Of a stretch of DNA of 39,832 nucleotides, positions 6,726 to 39,832 are shown piece by piece. Origin of the DNA: Nitrospira sp. (lineage in GTDB: Bacteria > Nitrospirota > Nitrospiria > Nitrospirales > Nitrospiraceae). Each line of letters opens with the position of its first letter. Position 1 is the stretch's first letter. A program made the position numbers and the translations under genes. Location of the stretch: positions 1 through 39,832 of the forward strand of contig JARFPM010000017.1 in NCBI GenBank assembly GCA_030444405.1, read 5' to 3'. Under the pieces are notes generated by a model, which saw nothing but the letters and a program-made list of their open reading frames with translations, was not told where the DNA came from and made no database searches.

Positions 6726-6726
6726 G

Positions 6727-9900: not shown

Positions 9901-9909
9901 AAACGATCC

Positions 9910-11100: not shown

Positions 11101-11156
11101 GCGATCTACCCTATTTTGCACTCTCATAAATTATTCTGCGGAAAGGTAAAAGTGTC

Positions 11157-13667: not shown

Positions 13668-15209
13668 TCACGCCGGTGGGCGGGAGATGCCGAGCTTCTG
13701 CATCTTGGATTGGAGAGTCGTTCGCTTGACCCCCAACCGAGCCGCAGCGCCGGCTGGGCCTCCTACAACCCATTTCGCTTCCTGTAGGGCGCGCATGATC
13801 TGCTCCCGCTCTGCTTCCTCCAGTGTCGTCGCGGAGATAAGGACCGGACGGCTGTCTGCCTGAAGCTCGCTGATGGGCACCTGCAGATCAGTCCCTTGCG
13901 TCAGAATGACGGAACGCTCGACCAAATTCTCCAACTCACGAATGTTGCCCGGCCAATCATAGCGTGAGAGTACCTCCAGCGTCTTGGTCGGTACCGTTTG
14001 GATATTCTTCTTCATACGAATGGCGTAATGCTGGGTAAAGTAACGGACTAAGATAGGAATATCTTCCTGTCGTTCGCGTAGCGGCGGCAGAGTGATCGGG
14101 AAGACATTCAGCCGATAGTACAAGTCACTTCGGAACTGCCTGTCCTCCACCAAACTTTTGAGATCCCTGTTGGTCGCGGCGATCAAGCGAACGTTGACCC
14201 GTATAGTCTTCGTGCTGCCCAATCGTTCGAATTCCTGCTCCTGCAAGACACGAAGCAGCTTGGACTGCAGCTCCAACGGGATTTCGCCTACTTCATCGAG
14301 GAAGATCGTGCCTTTATCAGCCAACTCGAATCGGCCGGCCTTCTGCGAAATGGCGCCCGTGAAGGCCCCTCGTTCATGCCCGAAGAGCTCACTCTCCAAC
14401 AAACCGGTCGGGATGGCGGCACAGTTCAGTTTGACGAACGTGCGTTCGCTGCGCCCGCTCAGTCGATGAATGGCCCGGGCAATGAGTTCCTTGCCGGTGC
14501 CTGTTTCCCCTTGGATCAATACGGTCGAATCGGTCGGGGCCACGACCTCGACTTCCTTCAGCACCTGCTTCAAGGCTTCGCTGTCACCGATGATATCCTC
14601 AAACCCATGCTCGATTCGAAGCTCCTCTTCGAGATAGAGCTTTTCCTTCGCCAGTCTGTCTTTGAGCTCGGCAATCTGTTGGAATGCCAGGGCATTTTCG
14701 ACCGCAACCGCCACTTGTTGAGCCACTTGTTGCAGAAACTCGATGTCCCGATCGTTGTAGGCTTCTTTCTGCAGACTCAAGAATCCCATGGCACCCAACC
14801 GACCTCGCGCGGTGGTCAGAGGAACAAAACAAAATGACTCCGTCCCATCTTCCCTCATCTGACCAATGACCCACGGCCACCGACGTTCTTCTGACAAATT
14901 GGGGACCAGCAGCGGCTGCTGGTTTTCCCATACTAACCCCGCGGGACAGTCTTTAATCGCGACTTCATGCCCTCCCACGAGATCAGCCGGCACATTGGCT
15001 TGAATGGTATGGAGTCGCATCATCTTCTTGACAGGATCATGCAGAGACAAATCGACAAAATTAACCTGTACGACCCGAGGAAGACGGTGGGCGAGATCGC
15101 GAAAGAGTTGATCGAGGTCGCGCTGCGCGGAAATCGCTTGTGCAACTTCAAGAAGTGCCTGGTACCGCTCCGCAAGGTCCTCACAGGGAGAGACGTCAGG
15201 GCTACTCAT
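13668..15209 (-). CDS. Sigma-54-dependent transcriptional activator with GAF sensor domain
   Basis: A 513-residue enhancer-binding protein that would remodel RNA polymerase-sigma-54 at -24/-12 promoters. Residues about 20-170 form a GAF sensor domain (RYQALLEVAQAISAQRDLD at its start), as in FhlA and NorR. A linker helix leads to the AAA+ domain with Walker A GETGTGKE, the sigma-54 contact loop GAFTGA, Walker B GTIFLDEVGE and the RLNVFPITLPPLRER segment. The C-terminus is a Fis-type HTH (AAARLGVKRTTLQSKMQKLG). There is no receiver domain, so it probably senses a small ligand directly. I start at ATG 15209 (MSSPDVS); the frame stays open upstream but that part is unlike protein and overlaps the CDGSH gene. 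Possible targets are the sigma-54 sites proposed in this window. Confidence 0.92.
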   Translation of the reverse strand: MSSPDVSPCEDLAERYQALLEVAQAISAQRDLDQLFRDLAHRLPRVVQVNFVDLSLHDPVKKMMRLHTIQANVPADLVGGHEVAIKDCPAGLVWENQQPLLVPNLSEERRWPWVIGQMREDGTESFCFVPLTTARGRLGAMGFLSLQKEAYNDRDIEFLQQVAQQVAVAVENALAFQQIAELKDRLAKEKLYLEEELRIEHGFEDIIGDSEALKQVLKEVEVVAPTDSTVLIQGETGTGKELIARAIHRLSGRSERTFVKLNCAAIPTGLLESELFGHERGAFTGAISQKAGRFELADKGTIFLDEVGEIPLELQSKLLRVLQEQEFERLGSTKTIRVNVRLIAATNRDLKSLVEDRQFRSDLYYRLNVFPITLPPLRERQEDIPILVRYFTQHYAIRMKKNIQTVPTKTLEVLSRYDWPGNIRELENLVERSVILTQGTDLQVPISELQADSRPVLISATTLEEAEREQIMRALQEAKWVVGGPAGAAARLGVKRTTLQSKMQKLGISRPPA

Positions 15210-15291
15210 AGGTGGGCAGTATGGACCATCGAGCGTCAATCGCTCAAGGGGCAACCGATAAACGGCGGACCCACACAGGTTCCCGCCGCAC

Positions 15292-15528
15292 TTAGAGCGA
15301 CTGGTGCGTACCGTCGCAAAATGGTGGATCCTTCGTGTGCTTGCACTGACATAAGGCGACTTCTTTCTTTGCATCCACGGTAAACTCAACCGGCTCAAAC
15401 CCGGTCCCTTGATGAGCCCCATCACAGAACGGTTGGTCCCGCGAGCGTCCACAGGAACACCAGTAGTAGGTTCCCGGCTCCAACGACATCACCGAGGGTT
15501 GCTTGGCTGCGATGCGTGGTGTCCCCAT
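15292..15528 (-). CDS. CDGSH iron-sulfur domain protein (two motifs)
   Basis: A 78-residue protein with two CDGSH-type motifs, CSCGRSRDQPFCDGAH and CQCKHTKDPPFCDGTH, each with the three cysteines and one histidine that hold a redox-active 2Fe-2S cluster (mitoNEET-like). Bacterial two-motif members are small soluble proteins of uncertain role in redox or Fe-S transfer. The ATG at 15528 (MGTPRIAAK) follows AGGGAGG at good spacing; the open frame upstream is not needed. It lies 82 bases ahead of the sigma-54 activator on the same strand, so they may be co-transcribed. Confidence 0.9.
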   Translation of the reverse strand: MGTPRIAAKQPSVMSLEPGTYYWCSCGRSRDQPFCDGAHQGTGFEPVEFTVDAKKEVALCQCKHTKDPPFCDGTHQSL

Positions 15529-15663: not shown

Positions 15664-15714
15664 GATCACATCTCCTCCTTTACGATGATCGCGGAACCAT
15701 TTGCGCGGAGCGAC

Positions 15715-17415
15715 ATGCAGCCCGACCCCATATTCTTCGAAGATCTTGCCACCGTATTCGTAGCCGCCGTCGCAGGGGGCGTACTCGCACGGATCGCCCG
15801 GCAACCTTTGATCCTTGGCTACGTCCTGGGCGGGATCGCAATCGGCCCGTTTACCCCGGGACCCACTATCTCGGGATCCCACACGTTCGAGCTCTTTGCG
15901 GAAATCGGTGTCATCCTGTTGATGTTTTCAATCGGACTTGAGTTCTCAGTGAAAGACCTCATGCAGGTCAAATGGGTCGCCCTTGGAGGCGGTCCGCTTG
16001 GCATTCTTTTGTCCATCGGATTGGCCATCGTGGTGGGAAGCCTGGCCGGATGGACGACGATCCAAAGCATCGTGATTGGGGCCGTCATTTCCATGGCGAG
16101 CACCATGGTGCTCGCCCGTCTGCTCGTTGATCGGGGCGAGCTGCACTCACAGCACGGACGGGTGATGATCGGCATTACCCTTGTCGAAGACGTAGCCGTC
16201 GTGGCGATGACTGTGCTCATGCCGGCCCTCGGCGAGTTTGATTCGGGACGATTGCTTTTAATCGGTCAAGCCCTGGCAAAGGCTCTCCTTATTCTGGTGC
16301 CATTGGGGTACATCGGTGCCACGGTCATTCCACACATCATGACGCTCGTCGCCAGGACACAGAACCAAGAACTGTTCCTACTCGTCACGCTCGCAATCAG
16401 CCTTGGGACCGCTGCGATCACGCAGATGGTCGGATTATCACTCGCCTTAGGGGCCTTCTTGGCCGGCCTCATTATCAGTGCATCGGAGTATGGCCACGAA
16501 ACCTTGGCCCGACTGCTCTCGCTGCGCGATGCTTTCGTCGCGCTATTCTTCGTGACGATCGGTATCCTGATCGATCCCCGAGTCATTGTTGATCATCTTT
16601 CTCTGCTGGGCACGATGATCGCCTTGATTGTGGCCGGGAAGCTCATCATTTGGACGACGGTCGTGCGGCTGTTCGGATACCCATGGATGACAGCATTCCT
16701 GACGGGGATCGGCCTCACACAAATCGGTGAATTCTCGTTTGTTCTTATCCAGGTGGCAAGAACGGCAGGTCATATCGGCAGCGAAGTCTACAATGCGACG
16801 CTTGCAGCCTCCCTCATCACCATTCTCATGAATGCAGCGCTCGTCAGGTATGTACCTGACTGGATTGGCCGGAGGCGCCTCGCTCGAGGTTCGCCCGAGA
16901 CGATGTGCTTGCCGGTGGAGAGTGAACTCGTTGAGAAGCACGTCGTCCTGTGCGGATTTGGACGAGTCGGCAGTTCGCTCGGGAAAGCTTTTGAGGCCTT
17001 CAATCTTCCTTATGTGGCGATTGACCGAGATCCGGATGTTGTTCGCCAACTACAGGTTCGTGGCGCATCCGGCTTCTATGGCGACGCCTCCCATCGCGAA
17101 TTGCTCGTGAAGGCTCGAGTTCCGGAGGCCTCTCTGGTAATCGTGGCATTACCAGAGATAGAACCTGCGGCCCTGGCGGTGAGTCGCATCCGTGACGTCA
17201 ATCCGAACGTCCCGATCCTGGCTCGCGCTCATGGAGACGCGGAAGCCGAAAGACTCGCGGCAGTCGGAGCAACCGAGGTCATTCAAACGGAAGTCGAGGC
17301 ATCGGCGACGCTCATCCGACATGCTTTGAACTGCCTTTCGGTACCGAAGAAGCGCATTCTCAACTATGTAGAACAATACCGTCACTCGAAAGAAACAAAG
17401 CGGCAACCGGATTAA
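15715..17415 (+). CDS. Monovalent cation:proton antiporter, CPA2 family with RCK_N domain (KefB/YbaL-like)
   Basis: A 566-residue inner-membrane protein. Residues 1-380 are about a dozen transmembrane segments of the Na+/H+ exchanger fold, with GYVLGGIAIGPF, MFSIGLEF, and GLTQIGEFSFVL as CPA2 signatures. A soluble C-terminal RCK/TrkA-N domain begins at EKHVVLCGFGRVG, a Rossmann motif for NAD(H) or nucleotide, followed by IDRDPDVV. It probably exports K+ or Na+ against protons and is gated by a nucleotide; the closest relatives are YbaL/KefB-type. I prefer ATG 15715 (MQPDP), with GGAG just upstream, over ATG 15685, which lacks a ribosome site. It is the only plus-strand gene between the two minus-strand blocks. 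Confidence 0.9.
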   Translation: MQPDPIFFEDLATVFVAAVAGGVLARIARQPLILGYVLGGIAIGPFTPGPTISGSHTFELFAEIGVILLMFSIGLEFSVKDLMQVKWVALGGGPLGILLSIGLAIVVGSLAGWTTIQSIVIGAVISMASTMVLARLLVDRGELHSQHGRVMIGITLVEDVAVVAMTVLMPALGEFDSGRLLLIGQALAKALLILVPLGYIGATVIPHIMTLVARTQNQELFLLVTLAISLGTAAITQMVGLSLALGAFLAGLIISASEYGHETLARLLSLRDAFVALFFVTIGILIDPRVIVDHLSLLGTMIALIVAGKLIIWTTVVRLFGYPWMTAFLTGIGLTQIGEFSFVLIQVARTAGHIGSEVYNATLAASLITILMNAALVRYVPDWIGRRRLARGSPETMCLPVESELVEKHVVLCGFGRVGSSLGKAFEAFNLPYVAIDRDPDVVRQLQVRGASGFYGDASHRELLVKARVPEASLVIVALPEIEPAALAVSRIRDVNPNVPILARAHGDAEAERLAAVGATEVIQTEVEASATLIRHALNCLSVPKKRILNYVEQYRHSKETKRQPD

Positions 17416-25562: not shown

Positions 25563-26336
25563 TCACTTGTCTTCAAATGAAAAATCGAGTGACTGTGTCT
25601 CGTTCGGTTTCACTGTGATCTCCCGCGTTTGCGTTCCTAAAATCGGATGCCATGCCTTGATATGGTACGTGCCGGCCGGGAGATCGCCGATGGCGAACGA
25701 ACCATTGAGGCTCGTCACGGCATAGTAGGGATTGTCGATCGCGTAGCCCCAATTCTGCATATAGGGATGCATGCCGCATTGTATGGTAAACACTTTCCGT
25801 CCTTTGACTAGCTGCACGACATCAGTGGTCCCGCTCGCTTGCAGCGCAGGGCGATGGAGGACGATATCGACCCCTGCAAGGTCATAGGCATACCCTTGAA
25901 TGTCGTGTGCGACCGGATCTCGATTGACCACAGTGACTCGACGCTTATCGCTGACCACGGTGACGAACGGCAGGAACTGGCACATAGTCGCTTCTACTTC
26001 GGCATCGGTGAAGGTAAACGGCTTTCCTTTCTGAATGTCATCCACAATGATCACCACATCCTTGAGCCCACCCTCTGGGCCAATATTGACTTCTTTCAGG
26101 AGACGATGTCCGTTTCCATCCGACAGCTCACCACAAAATGCGCGGTCTGGGTAGCGATGCAGTTTGAATTCTTTCGGCTCCGGCACTGGGCCAGTGAACG
26201 TGATCTTACCCTGCACTGTCGCGCCATCTGTAACGGTTCCCGACTCATACGCCTCGGCGTTCTCGCACAGTCCGAGGCTCAGCATCGCTGATGCACAGAC
26301 CGTCATCCATAGTCCTGTCGGAATCGTTTTTCTCAT
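25563..26336 (-). CDS. Exported cupredoxin-like protein with carboxypeptidase-regulatory-like C-terminal domain
   Basis: A 257-residue periplasmic protein with a Sec signal (residues 1-29). The middle is a cupredoxin-like beta domain: H144 in DPVAHDIQGY and the loop C187-G-M-H190-P-Y-M193 give a full H/C/H/M type-1 copper set with the C-x2-H-x2-M spacing of amicyanin. The last 60 residues (VTSLNGSFAIGDLPAGTYHI, then KAWHPILG) match the carboxypeptidase regulatory-like fold. Such proteins are often annotated near methylamine or copper-dependent redox genes; the electron partner here is unknown. The ATG at 26336 follows GGAGGGG. A small uncertain ORF and a sigma-54-type palindrome lie upstream. 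Confidence 0.85.
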   Translation of the reverse strand: MRKTIPTGLWMTVCASAMLSLGLCENAEAYESGTVTDGATVQGKITFTGPVPEPKEFKLHRYPDRAFCGELSDGNGHRLLKEVNIGPEGGLKDVVIIVDDIQKGKPFTFTDAEVEATMCQFLPFVTVVSDKRRVTVVNRDPVAHDIQGYAYDLAGVDIVLHRPALQASGTTDVVQLVKGRKVFTIQCGMHPYMQNWGYAIDNPYYAVTSLNGSFAIGDLPAGTYHIKAWHPILGTQTREITVKPNETQSLDFSFEDK

Positions 26337-27100: not shown

Positions 27101-28498
27101 ATGTTCAGACCCATCCCAGAAACCACTGTCTTCCGAAGGATCCCCTATCGGCTGATCGCGTCCGTCCTTTTGATTCTGGCCCTGGTCGTCTCCGTCATTC
27201 TGCTCTTCAGTCTCGAACGCGAAAAACTCCTCCTGCAGGGTTTCACCAAAGGTAAGAGCGTTCCCACGGAACTATTCCCAGCTCTGTGGCAGTCGCGTAG
27301 CGACCTGATCGTCGTGACGCTTCTTGTATTCTTGGTGAGCGCGATCGGAATCGCGGCAGTCATCACCTTCCTGCACTACGACAGTACTCGCCGCACACTC
27401 GAGGAGGTAAAGGGATTAGCGCGCAACATCTTACAAAGTATCCCAACCGGCGTCTTGACTCTCAACCGCGCTGGAGTGATCACAGCCGTCAATCCCATGG
27501 CGGAGGCGGTATTGAAACGTGCCGGGGCAGACCTGTTGGGTCATTCGTACGAATCGGTCTTTGCGGAAGGAGATACCGTTCGTGAAGCACTTGATGGGGC
27601 GCTACGCTCACACGAGTACTCGAGACAGAAGGACGTGCCCTATGGAACTCACGACGGGATCGTTCATACCATCCGCATTGGCACCGCTGAATTGACCGGA
27701 GATGACGGACAACCGGCGGGCGTCATCTTGCAAGCTCAGGACGTCACGGAATGGCTGGCGCTCGAACGGCGGGTTCTCGTTGCGGAGAAACTTGCCGCTC
27801 TCCATACCTTGTCCGCCGGCGTCGCCCATGAGCTACGGAATCCCCTGAGCGCGATGGATTTGAACTTGCATCTCCTCGATGAAACATTGAAGGAACGGGG
27901 CGGGCTGGTACCGGACGCGGTGCACTATCTTCAAGTCGTGAATGCCGAATGTCGGCGCCTCTCCGTGATTTTGGATAACTTCATGAGATTTGCGCGTCCC
28001 ACCTCAATGGGCCTCCATGAAGTGGACTTGCGAAAGGTCAATGCACACATCATGGCACTCATGCAATTCGAGGCACAGGAGCGGAAGATCCAACTGGAGG
28101 AACGGGTTGAAGAAGGATTACCCCCAGTGTTTGGGGACGAGACACAAATCAGCCAGGTCCTCGTCAACATCCTGGTCAACGCGTTCCACGCCATGCCGGA
28201 CGGTGGGCGCTGTTCGATCATCACGCAGGTACGGAGAAATGCCGATGTTCGCTGGGTGGAGGTCGTCGTGTCCGACACGGGGATCGGAATCAAGCAAGAA
28301 GACCTGTCGCATCTGTTCGAGCCGTTCTACACCACGAAGGCTGGTGGAACAGGCCTCGGCCTGGCCATTGCTTATCGAATTATGCAGGACCACGGCGGCA
28401 CCATTCGTGTTTCCAGCGTACCAGGGAGTGGAACCACAGTGGTCATAAAACTCCCCGTCGCCGCCGAATCCATTGAGAAGCTTGGGGCAGGGGCATGA
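27101..28498 (+). CDS. Membrane-bound PAS-domain sensor histidine kinase (NtrB/ZraS-like)
   Basis: A 465-residue kinase. Two transmembrane helices (about 17-37 and 68-92) enclose a short periplasmic loop of about 30 residues. A PAS domain follows (NILQSIPTGVLTLNRAG, 109-220). The HisKA box is AGVAHELRNPLS with the phospho-acceptor H243. The HATPase region shows the N box NILVNAFHAM, the G1 box DTGIGI, the F box FEPFYTTK and the G2 box GTGLGLA. The gene overlaps the regulator start by four bases (ATGA), so the two form a cognate pair. The signal is unknown; the small periplasmic loop and the PAS domain are the likely sensors. No ribosome site is visible before the ATG. Confidence 0.93.
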   Translation: MFRPIPETTVFRRIPYRLIASVLLILALVVSVILLFSLEREKLLLQGFTKGKSVPTELFPALWQSRSDLIVVTLLVFLVSAIGIAAVITFLHYDSTRRTLEEVKGLARNILQSIPTGVLTLNRAGVITAVNPMAEAVLKRAGADLLGHSYESVFAEGDTVREALDGALRSHEYSRQKDVPYGTHDGIVHTIRIGTAELTGDDGQPAGVILQAQDVTEWLALERRVLVAEKLAALHTLSAGVAHELRNPLSAMDLNLHLLDETLKERGGLVPDAVHYLQVVNAECRRLSVILDNFMRFARPTSMGLHEVDLRKVNAHIMALMQFEAQERKIQLEERVEEGLPPVFGDETQISQVLVNILVNAFHAMPDGGRCSIITQVRRNADVRWVEVVVSDTGIGIKQEDLSHLFEPFYTTKAGGTGLGLAIAYRIMQDHGGTIRVSSVPGSGTTVVIKLPVAAESIEKLGAGA

Positions 28499-29853
28499 CG
28501 AACACCGCGCACATCCTCATCGTTGACGACGAGGTGAACATTCGCAACGCGCTGGTCACCCTACTCGAAAGGAAGGGATATCAGGCGCGAGGGGTGGGCA
28601 CAGCGGAAGAGGCGCTGGATCTGCTTGAAACGACCAGCATGGATTTGGTGATTAGCGACTTGCGCATGCCGGGAATCGGCGGGATGGAATTCCTGCGGCG
28701 GCTGCACACGAAATGGCCCTGCACGGAGGCCGTGGTCATGACGGCCTACGGCTCCATCGAAACCGCAGTGGAAGCGATGCGCTTCGGCGCCTACGATTAT
28801 CTCACCAAGCCCATCGATCGTGAGCGGTTCTCCATCGTTGTGGAGAAAGCGCTCGAGCGACACCTTCTCGCCATCGAAAACCAGCAGCTCCGTGATCGAC
28901 TCGAAACGAGAACACGTTTCGAACGAATGGTCGGCGAGAGCGAAGCCATGCAGCGAGTCTACAGCCTGGTAGAAATGGTGGCGGACAGCGATGTGACGGT
29001 CTTGCTCACGGGGGAAAGTGGAACCGGGAAGGAACTCGTCGCGCGTGCAATCCATCATAAAAGCCCTCGGGCCGACGGGCCGTTGATTACCATGAATTGC
29101 GGGGCATTGCCCGAGAACCTGTTCGAAAGCGAGTTATTCGGCTATGAAAAAGGCGCCTTCACCGGCGCGCTGATCACTAAGGCCGGCCGATTCGAACTGG
29201 CAGACGGCGGAACGCTCTTGTTGGACGAGATCGGTGAGCTCTCCTTAAAATCCCAAGTCGACTTCCTTCGCGTTTTGGAGACCAAAGAATTCCGCCGTCT
29301 GGGTGGAACGAAGGTCGTGAAAGTGGATGCCCGAATAATTGCCGCCACCAACCGCAACTTGGCGGAGGCCGTCAAGCAAGGCGACTTTCGTGAGGATCTC
29401 TTTTATCGGCTCAATGTTGTACCTATCAAACTACCGCCGCTGCGGGAACGCGGAGACGACATTCCCCTCCTTGTTGAGACGTTCCTGCCAGAATTTTGTG
29501 CGCAGCATCAACGAGCGTCAAAGGAAGTCTCGCGAGAAGCGATGCGGCTATTACGGCTGTATGCCTGGCCGGGAAATATTCGGCAACTCCGCAACCTCCT
29601 CGAACGACTGGTCGTGACCGTACGCGAGGATATGATCCAGCCCCAGCATTTGCCGGAGGAGATTCGGGCCAGCCAAGAAGATATTAGAACCATGGTCGTC
29701 ACCCTTGGAAGGCCCTTGGAGGAGGTCGAAAAAGAAGTAATTCGCCGGACCCTCTTGGAAGTCACCAACCACCGCGAGAAAGCCGCCAAACTGCTCGGTA
29801 TTAGCCTGCGATCCCTCCAGTACAAGATCAAGGAATACGGTATCCGCGAGTAA
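28495..29853 (+). CDS. NtrC/ZraR-family response regulator (sigma-54 activator)
   Basis: A 452-residue regulator. The receiver domain (1-120) has D11/D12, the phospho-acceptor D55 in VISDLRMPG and the conserved lysine in YLTKPID. The AAA+ domain has Walker A GESGTGKE, the sigma-54 contact loop GAFTGA, Walker B GTLLLDEIGE and the RLNVVPIKLPPLRER segment. The C-terminal Fis-type HTH reads AAKLLGISLRSLQYKIKEYG. Phosphorylated by the kinase just upstream, it should activate -24/-12 promoters. Candidate targets in the window are the three sigma-54-type sites, of which the palindrome at 26794-26811 is closest. Homologues next to hydrogenase-type loci exist, but a link to the downstream hyf-like genes is inference. 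Confidence 0.94.
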   Translation: MTNTAHILIVDDEVNIRNALVTLLERKGYQARGVGTAEEALDLLETTSMDLVISDLRMPGIGGMEFLRRLHTKWPCTEAVVMTAYGSIETAVEAMRFGAYDYLTKPIDRERFSIVVEKALERHLLAIENQQLRDRLETRTRFERMVGESEAMQRVYSLVEMVADSDVTVLLTGESGTGKELVARAIHHKSPRADGPLITMNCGALPENLFESELFGYEKGAFTGALITKAGRFELADGGTLLLDEIGELSLKSQVDFLRVLETKEFRRLGGTKVVKVDARIIAATNRNLAEAVKQGDFREDLFYRLNVVPIKLPPLRERGDDIPLLVETFLPEFCAQHQRASKEVSREAMRLLRLYAWPGNIRQLRNLLERLVVTVREDMIQPQHLPEEIRASQEDIRTMVVTLGRPLEEVEKEVIRRTLLEVTNHREKAAKLLGISLRSLQYKIKEYGIRE

Positions 29854-30205
29854 GGATCCCCCAAGCTTACCCGCACTAAATCAACCTTCTTGTCTCCTCT
29901 CCTCTTCGATCTGCAATTCTTGCACGTGTTTCATCGGCTACATCAAAGCGGTAACTCCGCGATCCGTCAAAAGACATCCGCGTCTCACCCATCAGCTGAA
30001 GGATTACGACCTGCAGATCTTGCAGATGACTAGTGTGCTCCCAGTCGGCTCGTGAATCCGACGATGCTCTGGTTTGTAGATTCCCGTTGAAAGCGCGCAA
30101 TAAATCTACTGCTTTGTCCGCTCGCTTTTCGCGGCACCCAGTATGCAGAGACTCCCTTCTGGCAGAGGAACGAGTCAGTCGAGAGGAACGCAAGGCGGAA
30201 GAGTA
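29854..30205. other. Gap between the response regulator and the lipoprotein gene
   Basis: About 350 bases. A minus-strand frame at 29876-30193 is the only candidate gene and is weak. No terminator was found after the regulator stop, and no sigma-54 core on the plus strand. Confidence 0.45.
29876..30193 (-). CDS. Doubtful small ORF of unknown function
   Basis: A 105-codon frame, convergent with the response regulator. Its second half (HLQDLQVVILQLMGETRMSF, then SRSYRFDVADETRARI) is rather protein-like, but the start is a TTG without a ribosome site and the N-terminal part is arginine/serine-rich. It could be a real small gene with a later start, or a chance frame. Confidence 0.28.
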   Translation of the reverse strand: MRSSRLTRSSARRESLHTGCREKRADKAVDLLRAFNGNLQTRASSDSRADWEHTSHLQDLQVVILQLMGETRMSFDGSRSYRFDVADETRARIADRRGEETRRLI

Positions 30206-31326: not shown

Positions 31327-31368
31327 CGATGGTAGGACCGGTCTGAATAAGTGAGGAGGAGGACGGTC

Positions 31369-31650
31369 ATGAGCGTTGAACCGAGAAGGGAGACCTTATC
31401 AACTCCTCGATCGCCGAAGGAAGACTGGCTTGTCCGACTCGCTCGGCTGCAAGAACTGCTGACCGCCTGCCCGAGCGATATCCTTTCCCGATGCGAACTG
31501 GCAGCACTACTCGAAACGATGGAAATGTGCGAAGAGGCATTGGTCCACTGGAAAGTAGTCATAGATCTTGATGCCAACAGTCTTATAGCACGGGAAGGTC
31601 TCGTTCGGTGCCAACAGAAGACAAGACATCAGCTACAATCCGCACGTTGA
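31369..31650 (+). CDS. Small TPR-like protein
   Basis: A 93-residue soluble protein. Residues about 25-80 resemble one and a half tetratricopeptide repeats: helix WLVRLARLQELLTACPSD, then LSRCELAALLETMEMCEEAL, then HWKVVIDLDANSLIAREGLV, with the alanine, tyrosine-position and proline pattern of TPRs. It probably acts as a protein-interaction module. The ATG at 31369 has GAGGAGGAGG upstream, a strong ribosome site. It ends ten bases before the next gene, so they are co-transcribed. Confidence 0.65.
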   Translation: MSVEPRRETLSTPRSPKEDWLVRLARLQELLTACPSDILSRCELAALLETMEMCEEALVHWKVVIDLDANSLIAREGLVRCQQKTRHQLQSAR

Positions 31651-32279: not shown

Positions 32280-32564
32280 ATGTCAGGACATGCGGACATC
32301 GTTGTGGTGCAGTTGCCGAGAGGTGCTACGGCGATGGTGTGGATGGACCAAGCCACGGGTACCGTGGCGACCAGCCATGCCGTACTGCAGGTGACGCTAT
32401 GCCGGGACGTGAAGGAAGACCGGGCCGTGCGTTGGGTACTGAAAGCTGAGCCGAGGTTCGAACTTACTCACTACTCAAGTCTTCACCTAGCCCGCAGGTC
32501 AGCCAATGTTACGGATGAACCGCAGCCTCCAGTCAGCCGCGCGGTAATGTCACAAGAATGCTAA
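32280..32564 (+). CDS. Small uncharacterised protein
   Basis: A 94-residue frame starting two bases after the basic peptide gene and ending 16 bases before hyfB. The first half (DIVVVQLPRGATAMVWMDQA) is protein-like; the rest is polar. No signal peptide, membrane segment or known motif. A GGGGAG lies somewhat far upstream of the ATG. It is probably real because it fills the space between two well-supported genes on the same strand. Confidence 0.45.
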   Translation: MSGHADIVVVQLPRGATAMVWMDQATGTVATSHAVLQVTLCRDVKEDRAVRWVLKAEPRFELTHYSSLHLARRSANVTDEPQPPVSRAVMSQEC

Positions 32565-32580: not shown

Positions 32581-34608
32581 ATGCTGAACTTGCTATGGAT
32601 TCTTCTCGGCGGATATGCGATCGGGATACTTCTTCCACTCTGTCTCCCTCGACGGCCCAAAGCTCAAATTATCACGACCACCGCCCCCGCCATCGTGACG
32701 ACCAGCGCAGGCGTCGTCGTTGGGCTCCTTGGCCTCACGTCTTCGGAGCCTGCCACGGGCTCACTCGCCTCGACAATTCCTCTGCTCACCTTCGCCATTC
32801 GGCTTGATCCACTGGCGGCATTCTTCGTGTTGACCATCTCCCTCGTGGGTCTGGCCGCGTCGATCTATGCCATTGGATACATACGGCATTTTGATGGGCG
32901 CGCATCGGTCCCGACGCTCGGCTCCCTCTTCAACGGCTTTCTGCTCTCCATGACGCTCGTCGTTCTGGCAGACAATGGGTTCTTCTTTTTGATGGTCTGG
33001 GAACTCATGTCGTTGCTGTCCTATTTCCTCGTAGTGACAGAGCACGAGAAAGCTGAAGTGCGGTATGCGGGATTGTTCTATCTGATCATGACGCATGTGG
33101 GAACCGCGTTCATTGTCCTGGCTTTCCTCATTTTCTTCCAAGCAGGCGGGTCGTTTGCGTTCGAGGCCTTCCGACATCCGGCGCAGACCTTGCCGGAGGG
33201 CATGAAAACGATCGCGTTTCTGATGGCCCTGATCGGCTTCGGCACCAAAGCGGGCATCGTGCCACTCCATGTCTGGCTGCCGCATGCGCATCCCGTGGCG
33301 CCATCGCATATTTCAGCCTTGATGTCCGGCGTCATGATCAAGACCGCGATCTATGCCCTGATCCGGGTGTATTTCGATTTCCTCGGTGGACAGTTCCCCT
33401 GGTGGTGGGGCTTCGTCGTCCTCGTGATCGGCGCAGTGTCTGCGTTGCTCGGCGTGATGTACGCGCTGATGGAGCATGATTTGAAAAGCTTACTCGCCTA
33501 CCACAGCGTTGAGAACATTGGCATCATTCTGTTGGGGATCGGGGCCGGGATGATGTTTCAGACCTACGAGCTCAAGGAGTTTGCTGCTCTGGGCTTGTTG
33601 GCCGGACTGTATCACACGATCAACCACGCCATGTTCAAGGCCCTGCTGTTCCTGGGAGCCGGTTCGCTGCTTTATGCCACGCACACACGCAACATGGAGG
33701 AATACGGCGGCCTTCTTCGGCGCATGCCATGGACCGGTGCTTGCTTCTTGATCGGCGCTGTGTCGATTGCAGCCCTGCCGCCGACCAATGGATTCGTCAG
33801 CGAATGGCTGGTCTTCCAAAGCCTCTTTCTCAGCTTTCACATCCCCGACACCTTCCTGAAGCTGATGCTCCCGCTTGCAGCGGCGATGCTGGCCCTGACC
33901 GGAGCGCTCGCCTTGGCCTGCTTCGCAAAAGCGTTCGGGATTTCGTTTCTTGCCCTGCCACGGAGCACACACGCCCGACATGCGGGAGAGGTTCCGATTC
34001 CTATGCGCATAGGGATGGCCTTATTGGCTACAGTCTGTGTCGCCCTTGGTCTCGGACCGATGGTGGTCGTGCCGCTGCTGGACCGAGTTGTCGCGCCGTT
34101 CACGGGTGTGTCGATCGAAGGCCAAGTGCTGGCCCTTGACGGCTGGGCGCTAGCCACGGTGAATGTGGAGTTTTCGAGTCTCTCACCACCGATCCTTGCC
34201 ATGCTGCTGACAGTGCTTTCGATGCTTGGGCTCGGGATCGTGGCGGCCTTTGGTGGGCTCGTAAGGCGGCGCTATTACAAAACGTGGGGCTGCGGGATCA
34301 ACCTCACGCCCCGTATGGAGTATACGGCGACCGGATTTGTGCAACCCATCAAACGAGTATTCAGCTCGATTTATCAACCGACGGTGAAGCTCGAGACGGA
34401 GTTTCTCCAAGAGTCACAGTATTTCGCTAAACGACGGCGCTTTGAATTTCACGTTGAGCCGATCTTTCAGAAGTATCTCTATGATCCGGTGCTCGCGTTC
34501 GTTACCGCCCTAGCCGGGCGGCTGCGGGTCATCCAGGCGGGGAGCCTGCACCTCTACTTGGCCTATATCTTTGTCACGTTGATTGTCTTGTTATTATTTG
34601 CGGTGTAA
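32581..34608 (+). CDS. hyfB: Hydrogenase-4-like membrane subunit B (antiporter-like, ND5/ND2 type)
   Basis: A 675-residue integral membrane protein related to the proton-pumping antiporter subunits of complex I and group 4 hydrogenases. About 15 transmembrane segments are visible. Family marks are MVWELMSLLSYFLVVTEHE with the conserved glutamate of TM5, GFGTKAGIVPLHVWLPHAHP with the pumping lysine, SHISALMSGVMIK, and YHSVENIGIILLGIG. The C-terminal segment WGCGINLTPRMEYTATGFVQ is typical of HyfB/HycC proteins. It starts the hyf-like cluster and lies 16 bases after the small upstream gene. The C-terminal stop is four bases ahead of hyfC. It probably forms one ion channel of the complex. Confidence 0.93.
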   Translation: MLNLLWILLGGYAIGILLPLCLPRRPKAQIITTTAPAIVTTSAGVVVGLLGLTSSEPATGSLASTIPLLTFAIRLDPLAAFFVLTISLVGLAASIYAIGYIRHFDGRASVPTLGSLFNGFLLSMTLVVLADNGFFFLMVWELMSLLSYFLVVTEHEKAEVRYAGLFYLIMTHVGTAFIVLAFLIFFQAGGSFAFEAFRHPAQTLPEGMKTIAFLMALIGFGTKAGIVPLHVWLPHAHPVAPSHISALMSGVMIKTAIYALIRVYFDFLGGQFPWWWGFVVLVIGAVSALLGVMYALMEHDLKSLLAYHSVENIGIILLGIGAGMMFQTYELKEFAALGLLAGLYHTINHAMFKALLFLGAGSLLYATHTRNMEEYGGLLRRMPWTGACFLIGAVSIAALPPTNGFVSEWLVFQSLFLSFHIPDTFLKLMLPLAAAMLALTGALALACFAKAFGISFLALPRSTHARHAGEVPIPMRIGMALLATVCVALGLGPMVVVPLLDRVVAPFTGVSIEGQVLALDGWALATVNVEFSSLSPPILAMLLTVLSMLGLGIVAAFGGLVRRRYYKTWGCGINLTPRMEYTATGFVQPIKRVFSSIYQPTVKLETEFLQESQYFAKRRRFEFHVEPIFQKYLYDPVLAFVTALAGRLRVIQAGSLHLYLAYIFVTLIVLLLFAV

Positions 34609-34612
34609 GCCG

Positions 34613-35563
34613 ATGTTGTACGCCTTCGTTCTTATCGTCATGCAGACCGTCGTCTTATTGGCGGTCGCTCCGTTGATCGTCGGCCTCATCAGGAAGGTGA
34701 AGGCACGTCTGCAATGTCGGCGGGGGGCCGCCGTCTTTCAACCCTACGCGGATCTCATCAAGCTCTTCCGCAAGCAGCCGGTTGTCTCATCGACCACGTC
34801 GTGGATTTTCACCGCCACACCCTACATCCTCTTTGCTTCGACGCTGGCGGCCGGGCTGCTGGTGCCGGTGTTTATGTCCACGACGCCGTTGAACTTCGCA
34901 GGCAATATCATCGCCCTGGTCTACCTGCTGGCCTTGGGCACATTCTTTTTGATGTTGGCCGGTCTCGATGCCGGTTCGGCCTTCGGAGGGATGGGGAGCA
35001 GCCGCGAAGCGATTGTGGCATCGTTGACCGAACCAGCCATGATGCTGTCGATCTTTGCGATCGCGCTCACCGCAGGATCTACGAATCTGAGCACTATCGT
35101 CCACAAGACGGCGTTACTCGAAGGCATTGTGACCGATCCGTCGCCTCATCTCATGGCGTTCGCCGCACTGGTCATCGTGGCCATTGCCGAAACCGGACGG
35201 GTGCCTGTGGACAACCCGGCCACTCACCTCGAACTCACGATGATCCATGAAGCGATGATTTTAGAATACTCGGGGCGATACCTGGCGCTGGTTGAATGGG
35301 CGGCAGGACTCAAGCTCTTGGTATTTCTGACCTTGATCGCCAACGTGTCCGCTCCTTGGGGAATTGCAACCAGTATGGAGCCGGCCGCACTCGGCATCGG
35401 CCTGGCCACCTATCTCGTGAAGGTTTCGGGATTGGCGGTGTTGATCGGCTTCCTTGAATCGATGTTTGCCAAGTTGCGTCTCTTCAGAGTGACGGACTTG
35501 CTGGGAACCGCCTTTGTCCTGGCGCTGCTCGGACTTGTCTTCTTCTACGTCCTGCGAGGCTGA
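34613..35563 (+). CDS. hyfC: Hydrogenase-4-like membrane subunit C (NuoH/ND1 type)
   Basis: A 316-residue membrane protein with eight or so transmembrane helices, homologous to complex I NuoH, the subunit that connects the soluble arm to the pump modules. The conserved cytoplasmic loop is present: IAETGRVPVDNPATHLELTM, then HEAMILEYSGRYLALVEW, with the acidic residues expected at the quinone/interface site. PYADLIKLFRKQPV near residue 45 is another family mark. ATG 34613 lies four bases after the hyfB stop; the longer upstream extension overlaps hyfB and is rejected. In Hyf/Hyc-type complexes this subunit docks the large and small catalytic subunits. Confidence 0.93.
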   Translation: MLYAFVLIVMQTVVLLAVAPLIVGLIRKVKARLQCRRGAAVFQPYADLIKLFRKQPVVSSTTSWIFTATPYILFASTLAAGLLVPVFMSTTPLNFAGNIIALVYLLALGTFFLMLAGLDAGSAFGGMGSSREAIVASLTEPAMMLSIFAIALTAGSTNLSTIVHKTALLEGIVTDPSPHLMAFAALVIVAIAETGRVPVDNPATHLELTMIHEAMILEYSGRYLALVEWAAGLKLLVFLTLIANVSAPWGIATSMEPAALGIGLATYLVKVSGLAVLIGFLESMFAKLRLFRVTDLLGTAFVLALLGLVFFYVLRG

Positions 35564-35564
35564 C

Positions 35565-36233
35565 GTGCCGCTGATGACACCACCGATCGGATCACAATTG
35601 GTAGACTTGGGTTCGGCCCTTTTACTGCTGACCTGCTTTGCGATCGTGGCGCAGCGGCGGCTGTCGGCCTGTGTTGATCTGTTTGCCCTGCAATCGGTTT
35701 TCCTCGCGCTCACCGCGACGCTCGTCGCATTTCTGACGGGGATTCACCACATTTACATCGCCGCCACTCTGACCATCGTCATCAAGGCGATCGTCATCCC
35801 GCGAATCTTGAAGAAGGTGATCGAGCGACTCAATGTCTCGCGTGAACTGGTGATGCATATCAATGTGCCGGCCAGCCTGCTCATCTGCGGAGTGCTGGTC
35901 ATGATCGCCTTCCTGATTACACAGCCGATCATTCCGTTTGGACATCTCCTGACCCGTGATTCGCTGGCCATTGCGCTGGCAATCGTGTTGATCGGTTTCT
36001 TTACGATGATCGCCCGCCAGAAGGCCGTCACGCAAATGATCGCGTTTCTGGTCATGGAAAACGGCCTTTTCTTAGGAGCCACCGCTGCAACCTATGGCAT
36101 GCCGCTGATCGTCGAATTAGGCGTGTTCTTCGATGTATTGGTCGCAGCCTTGATCGCAGGCATCTATACGAATCGGCTGCAAGATACCTTCGATAGCGTC
36201 GATACCGCCCACCTCAGTGAGTTGAAGGAATGA
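35565..36233 (+). CDS. hyfE: Hydrogenase-4-like membrane subunit E (NuoK-like)
   Basis: A 222-residue membrane protein with six or seven transmembrane segments. The first half resembles NuoK/MrpC-like ND4L subunits (LFALQSVFLALTATLVAFLT, KAIVIPRILKKVIERL), and IAFLVMENGLFLGATAATYG carries the buried glutamate used in proton translocation. I choose GTG 35565 (VPLMTPP), with GAGG five bases ahead; ATG 35574 is the alternative. It overlaps hyfF by four bases (ATGA). Confidence 0.9.
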   Translation: MPLMTPPIGSQLVDLGSALLLLTCFAIVAQRRLSACVDLFALQSVFLALTATLVAFLTGIHHIYIAATLTIVIKAIVIPRILKKVIERLNVSRELVMHINVPASLLICGVLVMIAFLITQPIIPFGHLLTRDSLAIALAIVLIGFFTMIARQKAVTQMIAFLVMENGLFLGATAATYGMPLIVELGVFFDVLVAALIAGIYTNRLQDTFDSVDTAHLSELKE

Positions 36234-37744
36234 GCGATTTCACCATGACGATCGCCGTCAGCCTGCTCCTGCTCGCGCCGCTGCTAGCGGGTGGGCTCAG
36301 CCTGCTGCTGTCCAGCTCGCGCTGGCTCCATGTGACCAATTTGACCAGCATTGGAACACTGGTTGCCGCAGAAGTCATGATCGCGCGATCTGTCTTAGGG
36401 CAAGGCTCGCTCACGGCGTTCGGCGAGATCATTTACATCGACGCCCTCTCGTCGGTCATTCTGTTCATTATCGGGACGGTCGGTCTCGCCTGTTCCCTCT
36501 ATATGCGGTCGTATATGGACGAACAAGTCGCCCGCGGCGTCATCGCACCCAAGCGCCTCAATCTGTTTTTCTTCCTGTTTCATATGTTCCTGCTGACCAT
36601 GGTTGTCGCGACCGTCGCCAACAGCTTAGGGGTCCAATGGGTGGCGATCGAAGCCACGACGCTGACGACGACGTTTCTCATCGCCTTCTGGCGGCGGCGC
36701 GAATCGTTGGAAGCCGGCTGGAAATATCTCATCCTCTGTTCCGTCGGAATCTCCCTGGCTCTGTTCGGAGTCGTGCTGATGTATTATTCCTCCCTGCGTG
36801 TACTGGGAGATGTCAGTTCGGCCCTCAATATCACCCAGCTTCAGCAGGTGGCCTCGCAGTTGGACCCCCACATTCTGAAATTGGCCTTTGTGTTTCTGTT
36901 TGTCGGCTACGGCACAAAAGTCGGACTCGTGCCGATGCACAGCTGGCTGCCGGACGCCTACACGGAGGCGCCGGCACCGGTAGCGGCCATGCTGGCGGGC
37001 GTGCTGGAAACCGTGGCGGTCTATGCCATTCTGAGATGCCGGGGCATCGTCGATCAGGCCGTGCCTCCGGCTTTCACCGGTGGTCTATTAGCCTTCTTCG
37101 GGCTCGTATCGTTCGCGCTGGCGGCGTTCTTTATCCTCCTGCAGCACAATTACAAACGCCTCTTTGCCTACTCCAGCATTGAGCACATGGGCTTGGCGAT
37201 GGTCGGGTTCGGGATCGGCGGGCCCATCGGAAATTTTGGCGGCCTGTTCCATCTGGTCAATCATGCCTTTGCCAAATCGCTCGCCTTCTTTGCGGCAGGC
37301 AATATCCACCGCCGGTTCAAGTCGGTCGAGATCGATGAGGTCCATGGCCTTACGACCGTCCTGCCCTGGTCTGCTCTGGCGCTCCTCATTGCAGGACTGG
37401 CTCTGGCGACACTCCCGCCCTTTGCGCTCTTCAGTAGTGAGATGCAGATCATCACGGCGCTGGGATCATCGGGCCTCCCAGGTGAATGGACCCAGCCGGG
37501 CACAAGGTTTCCCATCGTGGTTCTCCTGCTCTGCAGTCTTGTTGCCTTCGGCGGTCTTCTCTACCGCATCGCTGGCATGGTCTGGGGCGTAGCTCCCAAG
37601 GACATCGTCCCCGGGGAGCAGTGGTCCGTGGGACACGTTCCAATCATTCTCTTGGGAGCTGTGCTCGTGGGATTCTGCTGGGCTCTGCCGCCTCCGTTGC
37701 AGCAGCTCTTTGAAGCCGCCTCAACCCTGTTGGTCAACTGGTAG
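36230..37744 (+). CDS. hyfF: Hydrogenase-4-like membrane subunit F (antiporter-like, ND4/ND5 type)
   Basis: A 504-residue membrane protein with about 14 transmembrane helices, the second antiporter-like subunit of the complex. Family motifs: VQWVAIEATTLTTTFLIAFW with the TM5 glutamate, GYGTKVGLVPMHSWLPDAYT with the channel lysine, EAPAPVAAMLAGVLETVAVY and YSSIEHMGLAMVGFGIGG. It starts at ATG 36230 overlapping hyfE by four bases, and ends 13 bases before hyfG. With hyfB it gives two ion-translocating modules; a third (HyfD-like) is not present here. Confidence 0.93.
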   Translation: MSDFTMTIAVSLLLLAPLLAGGLSLLLSSSRWLHVTNLTSIGTLVAAEVMIARSVLGQGSLTAFGEIIYIDALSSVILFIIGTVGLACSLYMRSYMDEQVARGVIAPKRLNLFFFLFHMFLLTMVVATVANSLGVQWVAIEATTLTTTFLIAFWRRRESLEAGWKYLILCSVGISLALFGVVLMYYSSLRVLGDVSSALNITQLQQVASQLDPHILKLAFVFLFVGYGTKVGLVPMHSWLPDAYTEAPAPVAAMLAGVLETVAVYAILRCRGIVDQAVPPAFTGGLLAFFGLVSFALAAFFILLQHNYKRLFAYSSIEHMGLAMVGFGIGGPIGNFGGLFHLVNHAFAKSLAFFAAGNIHRRFKSVEIDEVHGLTTVLPWSALALLIAGLALATLPPFALFSSEMQIITALGSSGLPGEWTQPGTRFPIVVLLLCSLVAFGGLLYRIAGMVWGVAPKDIVPGEQWSVGHVPIILLGAVLVGFCWALPPPLQQLFEAASTLLVNW

Positions 37745-37757
37745 TCGGGAGGGTATA

Positions 37758-39356
37758 GTGACAGACAGTCCATCGCCTGAACGATCAATCGAACAGCAGA
37801 TACAGACAGCCTTTCCCGGCGTGATTCCGGATTACCCCTCAGGCACAGCTCTGGTGCAGTATCGTACCGACAAACTCCAACTCCCGGAACTCGTCCGGTT
37901 TCTTCATGAGAAGATGCAGGGCCGCCTGGCTCTGCTGTTCGCGGTGGATTGCCGACCTCTGGAGAAGAAGTACGAGTTGCAGTACCTGTTCGCATTCAAG
38001 TCCCGCCAACCATTCGTGCTCGTTACGACAGAGTTGATCGGAGATGACCGTCTGTTCACATCGATCACGCCGTCGGTTCATGCTGCACAATGGTATGAAC
38101 GGGAAATTCGTGATCTCTTCGGCTTGATCCCGCAAGGCCATCCGGATCTCCGTCGTCTGGTTCGACACGAGCATTGGCCGAAGGGAACCCATCCGTTACA
38201 GAAAGACGTTTCGTGGAACAACGTCTTGGGACGGCAACAAGGCGAATACCGGTTCCACCATATTGAAGGGGAGGGGGTCTTCGAAGTCCCGGTCGGACCG
38301 ATTCACGCCGGGATCATCGAGCCGGGACATTTTCGGTTTTCCGTGGCCGGCGAACCAATCATGCAGCTCGAACTACGGCATTTTTGGAAACATCGTGGCG
38401 TGGAAAAACTGTTCGAGCAACTCACGCTGATCGACGCGGTGCTGCTGGCAGAACGCGTGTCGGGGGACACAACGGTGGGACACAGCCTCACCTATTGCCA
38501 AGCGGTTGAAACGCTTTTGGACCTCCAGGTGCCACGACGCGCCAACTACCTTCGTTCGCTCTTTCTGGAGCTGGAACGATTGTACAATCATTTCGGCGAC
38601 ATCGGCGCCATGTGCAATGACACAGCCTATGCGCTGGCCCATGCGCATTGCGGTCGGATCAAGGAACGGATCATGCAGCTTAATGACCGGCTGGTTGGAT
38701 CGCGCTTCCTGCGGGGCGTCATGCGGGTCGGGGGAGTCAGTTGGGACGTCGATCGCAGCCAACTCGGCACCCTTGTTGATGAACTCAACGGCATCCAGAA
38801 GGACTTTTCCGAAGTGGGCGCCATCATCTTTGCCAATGCCTCACTCACGGATCGGCTTGAAACCACAGGGGTTCTGACTGAACGGATTGCCTGGGATCAC
38901 GCCGTGACGGGAGTGGTCGGGCGGGCGTCAGGGATGGATCAGGATGTCCGCCGTGATCGCCCCTTCGCCGCGTATGACGAACTGCCCGTCAACGTCGCGC
39001 TCTACCGCTATGGTGACGCACGAGCGAGATTGCGCGTCCGTGGCGATGAAATCCACGAATCCATCCGGCTCATTCGTGAGATTCACGCGCGGATTCCGGA
39101 TGGTCCGATAGCGGCAGAGCCCGACCGATCGGCACCTCCTGGAGCCTGGGCAGTAGCTGCCGTGGAAGGATGGCGAGGCGAGATTCTCTATTTCGTATCG
39201 GCCGGAGACGATGGAATGATTCATCGCTGCAAAGTCCGCGATCCCTCATTCGTCAATTGGCCTGCCATACAGTGGGCGGTATTAGGGAACATCATTCCTG
39301 ATTTTCCACTGATCAACAAGAGTTTCAACCTGTCCTATGCGGGCAATGATCTCTGA
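37758..39356 (+). CDS. hyfG: Hydrogenase-4-like large subunit (HyfG/HycE family) lacking the Ni-Fe cysteine ligands
   Basis: A 532-residue fusion. Residues 1-165 match the complex I 30-kDa subunit (NuoC), with YEREIRDLFGLIPQGHPDLR near 113-132; residues 170-532 match the large hydrogenase subunit/NuoD, beginning PVGPIHAGIIEPGHFRFS. In a NiFe enzyme the N-terminal motif is R-x-C-G-x-C; here it is R233-V-S235-G-D-T238. The C-terminal D-P-C-x-x-C is replaced by DFPLINKSFNLSYAGNDL. All four nickel ligands are therefore missing, and no cleavable extension follows. Start GTG 37758 has GGGAGGG five bases ahead. The protein probably has the structural role NuoD plays in complex I, or carries another redox reaction, as in Ehr-type complexes. 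Confidence 0.92.
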   Translation: MTDSPSPERSIEQQIQTAFPGVIPDYPSGTALVQYRTDKLQLPELVRFLHEKMQGRLALLFAVDCRPLEKKYELQYLFAFKSRQPFVLVTTELIGDDRLFTSITPSVHAAQWYEREIRDLFGLIPQGHPDLRRLVRHEHWPKGTHPLQKDVSWNNVLGRQQGEYRFHHIEGEGVFEVPVGPIHAGIIEPGHFRFSVAGEPIMQLELRHFWKHRGVEKLFEQLTLIDAVLLAERVSGDTTVGHSLTYCQAVETLLDLQVPRRANYLRSLFLELERLYNHFGDIGAMCNDTAYALAHAHCGRIKERIMQLNDRLVGSRFLRGVMRVGGVSWDVDRSQLGTLVDELNGIQKDFSEVGAIIFANASLTDRLETTGVLTERIAWDHAVTGVVGRASGMDQDVRRDRPFAAYDELPVNVALYRYGDARARLRVRGDEIHESIRLIREIHARIPDGPIAAEPDRSAPPGAWAVAAVEGWRGEILYFVSAGDDGMIHRCKVRDPSFVNWPAIQWAVLGNIIPDFPLINKSFNLSYAGNDL

Positions 39357-39370
39357 GAAAGGGACGAGCC

Positions 39371-39832
39371 ATGTTTCGTATTATCAAAAAAAGTCTGAAG
39401 ACGGGCGTCGTCACGGGACAATATCCAGAATCTGAAATGCTCTCGGAACCAATCAACCCAGCCGTGACGGAAAGGGCTAACACCTTCCGACGATCTCTCG
39501 CAATCCGGGAAGTCGACACAGGCTCCTGCAACGCCTGCGAGATGGAAATGAATGCCTTGATGAATCCGGTATACGACGCCGAGCGGTTCGGCATTCACAT
39601 CGCAGCTTCGCCACGTCATGCGGACGCATTAGTTGTGACGGGGCCGGTCACCGTCAACATGGAGCGAGCCTTGAAAGACGTGCACAAGCAAACGCCTGAT
39701 CCGAAAATCGTCATCGCCCTCGGCGACTGTGCAATCAACTGCGGTTTGTTCAAAGGCAGCTACGCGGTAATGGGTCCAGTCGATCGCCATATTCCCGTTG
39801 ATGTACGAATCCCTGGTTGCCCACCGCGCCCA
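39371..39832 (+). CDS. hyfI: Hydrogenase-4-like small subunit (HyfI/NuoB family), truncated by window end
   Basis: 154 codons are present, open to the edge. It is the small subunit that carries the proximal 4Fe-4S cluster next to the large subunit. Cluster ligands look intact: C53-N-A-C56 in DTGSCNACEMEMNAL, the GDCAINCG motif at 118-125, and GCPPRP at 149-154. The N-terminal 45 residues are a family-typical basic extension. The ATG at 39371 follows GGGACGAG. Only the last part of the protein is missing. Intact cluster ligands beside a large subunit without nickel ligands suggest electron transfer without H2 chemistry. Confidence 0.9.
   Translation, partial: MFRIIKKSLKTGVVTGQYPESEMLSEPINPAVTERANTFRRSLAIREVDTGSCNACEMEMNALMNPVYDAERFGIHIAASPRHADALVVTGPVTVNMERALKDVHKQTPDPKIVIALGDCAINCGLFKGSYAVMGPVDRHIPVDVRIPGCPPRP

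Follow-up and report, generated by a model that had tools for sequence, protein, structure and literature searches.

An Ehr-type complex without Ni-Fe ligands in Nitrospira, and relatives that have also lost iron-sulfur cluster ligands

Introduction

The energy-converting hydrogenase-related (Ehr) complex, which was named in Geobacter, has six kinds of subunit and no Ni-Fe ligands. Operons resembling hyf were described in Nitrospira in 2017 (PMC5596200), and the missing CxxC motifs of Nitrospira hyfG/Ehr were noted in 2020, 2023 and 2025 (PMC7305129, PMC10284858, PMC12542776), as they were for ammonia-oxidising archaea and candidate phyla (PMC10432482, PMC7304191). According to a second-hand citation in one of the papers on the missing motifs, N. 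moscoviensis did not express its group 4 hydrogenase under H2-oxidising conditions. A pairing of Ehr with formate dehydrogenase (FDH-Ehr) has been proposed for other phyla (PMC6349859), and Ehr proteins were higher on formate in Geobacter (PMC7894505). For Nitrospira, the source of low-potential ferredoxin was described as unknown, with a 2M-type complex I as the published candidate for this role (PMC8407350). A nickel-free Ehr in Nitrospira is already known, and the complex described here, which has the same six kinds of subunit and no essential difference from the known Ehr, is new only as the copy of the present genome.

Among solved structures, EhrA, EhrB and EhrL are closest to subunits of E. 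coli hydrogenase-4 and formate hydrogenlyase (HyfBCEFGI, HycE), with HycE sharing the fold of the large subunit. Ehr differs from both in having no Ni-Fe cysteines, no C-terminal extension and no HyfA/HyfH-type iron-sulfur subunits, and, unlike in formate hydrogenlyase, no formate dehydrogenase was seen in the ehr locus. In the sulfane sulfur reductase (MBS) of P. furiosus the Ni-Fe site is partly lost and quinone ligands are absent, as in Ehr, but two of the four Ni-Fe cysteines remain in MBS, its proximal cluster is held by three cysteines and accompanied by two further clusters, and it lacks an equivalent of MbhL E21, the glutamate carrying protons in MBH (PMC7684303). The Ehr described here has none of the four cysteines, a four-cysteine cluster with no further ones, and a counterpart of the glutamate, E187. 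Respiratory complex I (NuoB, NuoCD, NuoH, NuoLMN) has homologous subunits, fold and pump residues in common with Ehr, which in turn lacks NuoEFGI.

Results

The window analysed here is the whole of contig JARFPM010000017.1 (39,832 nucleotides; assembly GCA_030444405.1), from a genome whose nearest named relatives are Nitrospira species, N. moscoviensis included, in keeping with the nitrite-oxidiser-like character that the initial annotation had given it. An intact operon of six genes, ehrABCDLS, with ehrL fifth and ehrS running into the contig end, lies on the forward strand from 32581 to 39832 in the order HyfB-, HyfC-, HyfE-, HyfF-, HyfG- and HyfI-like; no HyfA, HyfD or HyfH gene was found in the operon. 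The HyfB/NuoL-like antiporter subunit EhrA (32581 to 34608) scored 748 bits against the NCBIfam model of hydrogenase 4 subunit B (cut-off 667), and the HyfC/NuoH-like EhrB (34613 to 35563) matched PF00146 and HycD (7z0s_D, E 2e-46). The HyfE-like membrane subunit EhrC (35571 to 36233; PRK11492 of NCBIfam, E 2e-27) and the HyfF/NuoN-like antiporter subunit EhrD (36230 to 37744; hydrogenase 4 subunit F of NCBIfam, E 7e-127) were recognised by matches under the curated cut-offs. Among about 100 relatives, E141, K223, K353 and E408 of EhrA are 97-100% conserved, E132, E140, E193, E207, E213 and E218 of EhrB 94-100%, and E141, K230, K349 and E404 of EhrD 90-100%, so EhrA, EhrD and the coupling subunit EhrB are predicted to retain the charged residues needed for ion translocation. 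Judging from the subunit identities, the six-gene operon and a common clade with known Ehr such as that of Geobacter, the locus almost certainly encodes an Ehr complex, as had been suggested from the window alone; such complexes are membrane machines with six subunits and belong to the complex I superfamily. Directly before ehrA lies a small member of a conserved gene family (cluster c11; 32280 to 32564); the window copy diverges from its relatives after about 45 residues and may therefore be frameshifted or decayed.

The large-subunit gene ehrL occupies 37761 to 39356 on the forward strand (GTG start at 37761, or further upstream), of which the span reported initially, 38454 to 39353, takes in only the stretch that begins at the first motif and ends with the last codon. 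Its reading frame of 531 residues is open, with no internal stop, and joins NuoC-like and NuoD/HycE-like parts, matching the NuoC-like and NuoD-like families of Pfam. The best match among solved chains was E. coli HycE (7z0s_E; E 2e-79, nearly full length), in whose alignment C-G-I-C falls on S-G-D-T of EhrL (S234, T237) and D-P-C-Y-S-C on N-L-S-Y-A-G (S525, G528). R-V-S-G-D-T (38454 to 38471) thus stands in place of R-x-C-G-x-C, and D-F-P-L-I-N-K-S-F-N-L-S-Y-A-G-N-D-L (39300 to 39353) in place of the D-P-C-x-x-C end; the protein closes with ...SYAGNDL, the hydrogenase maturation extension being absent. The alignment bears out the claim of the initial annotation that all four Ni-Fe cysteines are missing and its reading of the first motif, whose arginine is, however, residue 232 and not 233. 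As neither of the two Ni-Fe-binding CxxC motifs of group 4 [NiFe] hydrogenases is present, EhrL is predicted to be unable to hold Ni-Fe in the usual way, with a conserved polar replacement (S234, D236, T237, N523, S525, G528) at the predicted former nickel site. The AlphaFold model of EhrL (mean pLDDT 94) was nearest in fold to HycE (7z0s_E; Z 49.3, rmsd 1.9 over 523 residues) and was also NuoD-like (Z about 45); the structural search confirmed the fold and gave nothing further.

The HyfI/NuoB-like small-subunit gene ehrS (39371 to 39832, forward strand) is cut after 154 codons because the window is the whole contig. The 4Fe-4S cysteines that had been reported for it are present as C-x-x-C...C...C, and all four were found in 102 of 113 aligned small subunits, Nitrospira included; every Nitrospirota Ehr proper retains its cluster ligands, as do most other members. 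The small subunit of the cysteine-bearing sisters begins with a two-cluster ferredoxin domain, and this is cleanly absent from Nitrospira EhrS, in which a leading helix, MFRIIKKSLKTGVVTGQYPES, runs straight into the NuoB part, leaving it with a single predicted 4Fe-4S cluster. A Rokubacteria EhrS (L152:2559-3068) was observed to carry GSPNCCEIE, with an adjacent cysteine pair like complex I rather than CxxC.

Several of these residues separate Ehr from its relatives. The proximal cluster motif of EhrS, C-N-A-C, has the hydrogenase-like C-x-x-C spacing and not the adjacent C-C found at cluster N2 in NuoB of complex I, and the positions of the quinone ligands His38 and Tyr87 of Nqo4 are Ile186 and Gly235 in EhrL, so that the quinone pocket for which modelling of the complex had been suggested lacks its usual ligands. 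The marks of MBS and MBX, two kept Ni-Fe-site cysteines and a three-cysteine proximal cluster, are likewise absent. Together with the retained E187, the missing quinone ligands and the C-x-x-C spacing argue that Ehr, as judged from these features, is not a plain complex I-type quinone reductase, and not an MBS-type sulfane reductase either. Asp287 of EhrL, which aligns with Nqo4 Asp139, was dropped as a hallmark of a quinone site because MBH, a true hydrogenase, carries the same Asp.

Within the genus, ehr was found in 27 of 59 genomes, and about half lack it. EhrL identity is about 70% or more across the genus, S-G-D-T and DFPLINKSFNLSYAGNDL are near-invariant, and the replaced motifs recur nearly letter-for-letter in 26 other genomes. 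The gene is therefore intact apart from its ligands, as had been claimed, and a sequencing error, which had been put forward as a possible source of the lost CxxC motifs, is ruled out; a pseudogene was rejected on the same conservation. Matches were obtained in 125 of 198 Nitrospirota genomes, a count that includes some true hydrogenases (a Thermodesulfovibrio-like group), and, among the matches listed from a scan of named genomes, Ehr relatives occur in many phyla, so these complexes are widespread. The signature of the whole family is [RK]-[VI]-S-G-D-[TS] and D-F-P-L-x-N-K-S-F-N-x-S-Y-[AS]-G-x-D-L. In the tree, 105 Ehr rows, with Geobacter sp. UBA698 and N. moscoviensis among them, form one clade (support 97) apart from the cysteine-bearing relatives. 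The adjoining sisters have the full set of four cysteines within an almost identical frame (DFPLINKSFELCYSCxDR), and few positions separate them from Ehr: the four cysteines, A/V236D, G287D, E523N and some others. A single clade beside four-cysteine relatives indicates that the loss of nickel, as reconstructed from this tree, is ancient and was inherited by Nitrospira.

Other arrangements were seen among the loci compared. In the large subunit of Desulfosporosinus sp. UBA8487 (L177:4376-5830) each Ni-Fe pair retains its second cysteine alone (RISGIC..., ELSYAC), so that two of the four are present, an intermediate state resembling that of MBS. L107:9216-10811 and L109:8123-9697 encode a distinct nickel-free type marked by RFAATTAFAH and DFPIILATFDLSVAENDR, and the fourth cluster cysteine of its small subunit is also replaced (Q or N). 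Two loci of the Nitrospirota family f14 (L093 and L101) carry tandem pairs of ehr operons with the signatures SGT[DS]SFSH and SGDTTVAH, and in a Methanomassiliicoccus genome (L157) the operon of a group 4 hydrogenase that has its cysteines comes immediately after the ehr operon.

In 14 loci (L140, L141, L146, L147, L149, L181, L184, L188 and L214-L219), mostly from draft genomes assembled from metagenomes, EhrS has lost all 4Fe-4S ligands or all but one, with DCDD, TCDD, SEGD, DTDN and similar patterns replacing C-C-C-C. Most come from candidate-phyla bacteria: L140, L141, L146, L147 and L149 are of candidate-phyla type, and L214-L219, from six further genomes with the same loss, group around L140. 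As L188 branches in the tree away from the other ligand-less loci, at least two independent losses of the cluster ligands are likely. Apart from single exceptions, the ligand-less loci checked retain S234, D236, N523, S525, G528 and the residues of the pump: the E-K-K-E set persists in EhrA and EhrD, with one Glu changed to Lys in some EhrD, as do the EhrB glutamates, with one changed to Ser in L188. The operons checked are otherwise complete or nearly so, and of the six genomes searched only that of L188 was found to hold a second small subunit, a distant one of hydrogenase type. No report of a cluster-free Ehr was found in the open-licence literature, which is weak evidence of novelty.

The initial annotation had proposed a search for the maturation genes hypA-F elsewhere in the genome. 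HypD was looked for and gave no match in the window's own genome, which has a match to another [NiFe] large subunit on contig C84. HypD is absent from 6 of 21 good-quality Ehr genomes, three of the six (G010, G026, G043; 93-99% complete) have ehr with neither HypD nor a PF00374 large subunit, and no association of HypD with Ehr was found in the genus (Fisher p 0.29). Its presence in genomes that have no HypD indicates that Ehr can do without Ni-Fe maturation, and Ehr does not show the dependence on Hyp proteins of group 4 [NiFe] hydrogenases. No formate dehydrogenase gene was seen in the operon or the annotated flanking genes, no above-cut-off Fdh-alpha match was obtained in the window's genome, and the 59 genus genomes showed no excess of formate dehydrogenase with Ehr (Fisher p 0.49); the partner that characterises FDH-Ehr was not found.

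No redox partner or donor gene is constant beside the operon in the loci compared. An NDH-2-like flavoprotein gene lies directly after ehrS in L038 and L039 and close to it in L044 and L052, but it was rejected as a partner, being adjacent only in these few close relatives. In the window's genome (G000) the corresponding gene is in two pieces broken by contig ends (C115:2-517 and C98:3-374), and about 2.7 kb of sequence upstream of the C115 piece contains no ehrS, so adjacency to ehrS is not supported there. The other flanking genes (PTS EIIA-like, methyltransferase, UDP-glucose dehydrogenase, porin, KamA, D-Ala ligase) vary between lineages and were set aside.

Discussion

The best explanation, to which we would give about an even chance, is that Nitrospira Ehr pumps ions in a redox-linked, H2-independent way, using one 4Fe-4S cluster and a putative electron carrier. 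On this reading Ehr would neither make nor oxidise H2; a soluble one-electron carrier, for example a ferredoxin or flavoprotein, would exchange electrons with the EhrS cluster, and a reaction at the former nickel chamber would drive H+ or Na+ through EhrA, EhrB and EhrD. The complex would, in Nitrospira, be turned on by a sensor kinase and a sigma-54 regulator of its own. The cluster cysteines in 102 of 113 small subunits, the conserved pump residues, the intact fold, the clade support, E187, the hydrogenase-like cysteine spacing, the Ehr genomes without HypD and the conserved upstream regulators all count for a redox pump; the lack of a constant donor gene or of an excess of formate dehydrogenase, the absent quinone ligands and the 14 ligand-less loci count against it. 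The suggestion in the initial annotation of an ion-pumping oxidoreductase using an unknown donor agrees with the intact pump residues, but the oxidoreductase half is unproven, because no donor gene is consistently linked and the ligand-less relatives keep the same site. A decayed hydrogenase heading for loss could explain why every catalytic ligand is gone, but it is refuted by conservation, since the frame is intact, the replaced motifs are near-invariant in the genus and the replacement is common to the whole Ehr clade; its probability is negligible. Operation with formate dehydrogenase, as published for other phyla and suggested by the formate-raised Ehr of Geobacter (PMC6349859, PMC7894505), is very improbable in Nitrospira, where neither the locus, the genome nor the genus comparison gave a sign of the enzyme. 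A quinone-reactive, complex I-like module coupling ferredoxin and (mena)quinone, perhaps reversed in Nitrospira so as to yield reduced ferredoxin for the reductive TCA cycle, is somewhat less remote yet unlikely. The NuoD-like fold, the Asp at the Nqo4 Asp139 position and the need for a low-potential ferredoxin source (PMC8407350) would suit it, but Ile186 and Gly235 replace the quinone ligands, the same Asp occurs in MBH, no NuoI-like ferredoxin-docking subunit is present, about half of the genus does without Ehr, and 2M-type complex I is already a published candidate for the ferredoxin role (PMC8407350).

A core function independent of electrons is a serious alternative, strengthened by the ligand-less relatives, and we regard it as possible, though with tentative confidence. 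The former nickel chamber would bind a non-redox ligand or gate protons or ions, making Ehr an antiporter-like or gradient-driven device, perhaps comparable to Mrp antiporters and DAB carbon pumps, and the single cluster of Nitrospira would have a structural role or act as a redox switch. It fits a stepwise loss of the Ni-Fe site, then the ferredoxin domain and then, in the 14 loci, the 4Fe-4S ligands, probably in two or more lineages, with the Ehr-specific and pump residues kept in the loci checked and no replacement small subunit in the six genomes checked, apart from the distant one of L188. That the 14 loci keep the EhrL signature argues that the site needs no electrons from the cluster, and the core function of Ehr may be something other than electron transfer. 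Against this, all Nitrospirota Ehr proper and most other members still carry the ligands of the cluster, and the ligand-less relatives may have switched function. It is conceivable, at the same tentative level, that a conserved polar site for a ligand or for protons, linked to the antiporter subunits, has taken the place of the nickel site, with clusters optional; if so, the candidate-phyla Ehr with no metal-cluster ligands left would resemble complex I in build but carry out no redox chemistry. Some Ehr relatives have no protein ligands for any redox metal, so such machines may not always run on electrons, and the cluster-free operons of candidate phyla offer a natural test of whether a complex I-type peripheral arm can work without them. 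The residues listed above provide point mutations that separate an electron-driven pump, a quinone-reactive pump and a non-redox ion device.

The regulation proposed for the redox-linked pump rests on two genes that precede ehr in most of the loci sampled from the genus, a PAS-containing sensor histidine kinase (27101 to 28498; conserved cluster c7) and its partner, an NtrC/AtoC-type sigma-54 response regulator (28495 to 29853; cluster c1), both on the forward strand and identified with Pfam and NCBIfam. A sigma-54-like promoter site, CGGCACCCAGTATGCA, with 2 mismatches lies at 30132 to 30147 on the same strand, 278 bases past the regulator stop, and sites with at most 3 mismatches were found 199-285 bases past that stop in 15 of 15 loci; random 100-base stretches contain one with at most 2 mismatches in 2% of cases and with at most 3 in 16%. 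The conserved site supports a candidate promoter but does not prove it, because the loci compared are related. A transcript starting there would reach ehrA after passing a small conserved gene (31351 to 31650, forward strand; cluster c5) present between regulator and ehrA in 12 of 17 loci compared. The two-component and sigma-54 arrangement may be a feature of the Nitrospira group.

Elsewhere in the window, a secreted protein with a CarboxypepD_reg domain is encoded on the reverse strand at 25563 to 26336 and recurs near ehr in several loci of the Nitrospira group (L038, L050, L110, L111 and L116). A complete RND efflux set of outer-membrane channel, AcrB-type pump and HlyD-type adaptor occupies 5313 to 11127 on the reverse strand. 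A GAF and sigma-54 activator gene with an FhlA-like layout (13668 to 15452, reverse strand) lies beside the gene of a Na+/H+ exchanger with a TrkA-N domain (15685 to 17415, forward strand).
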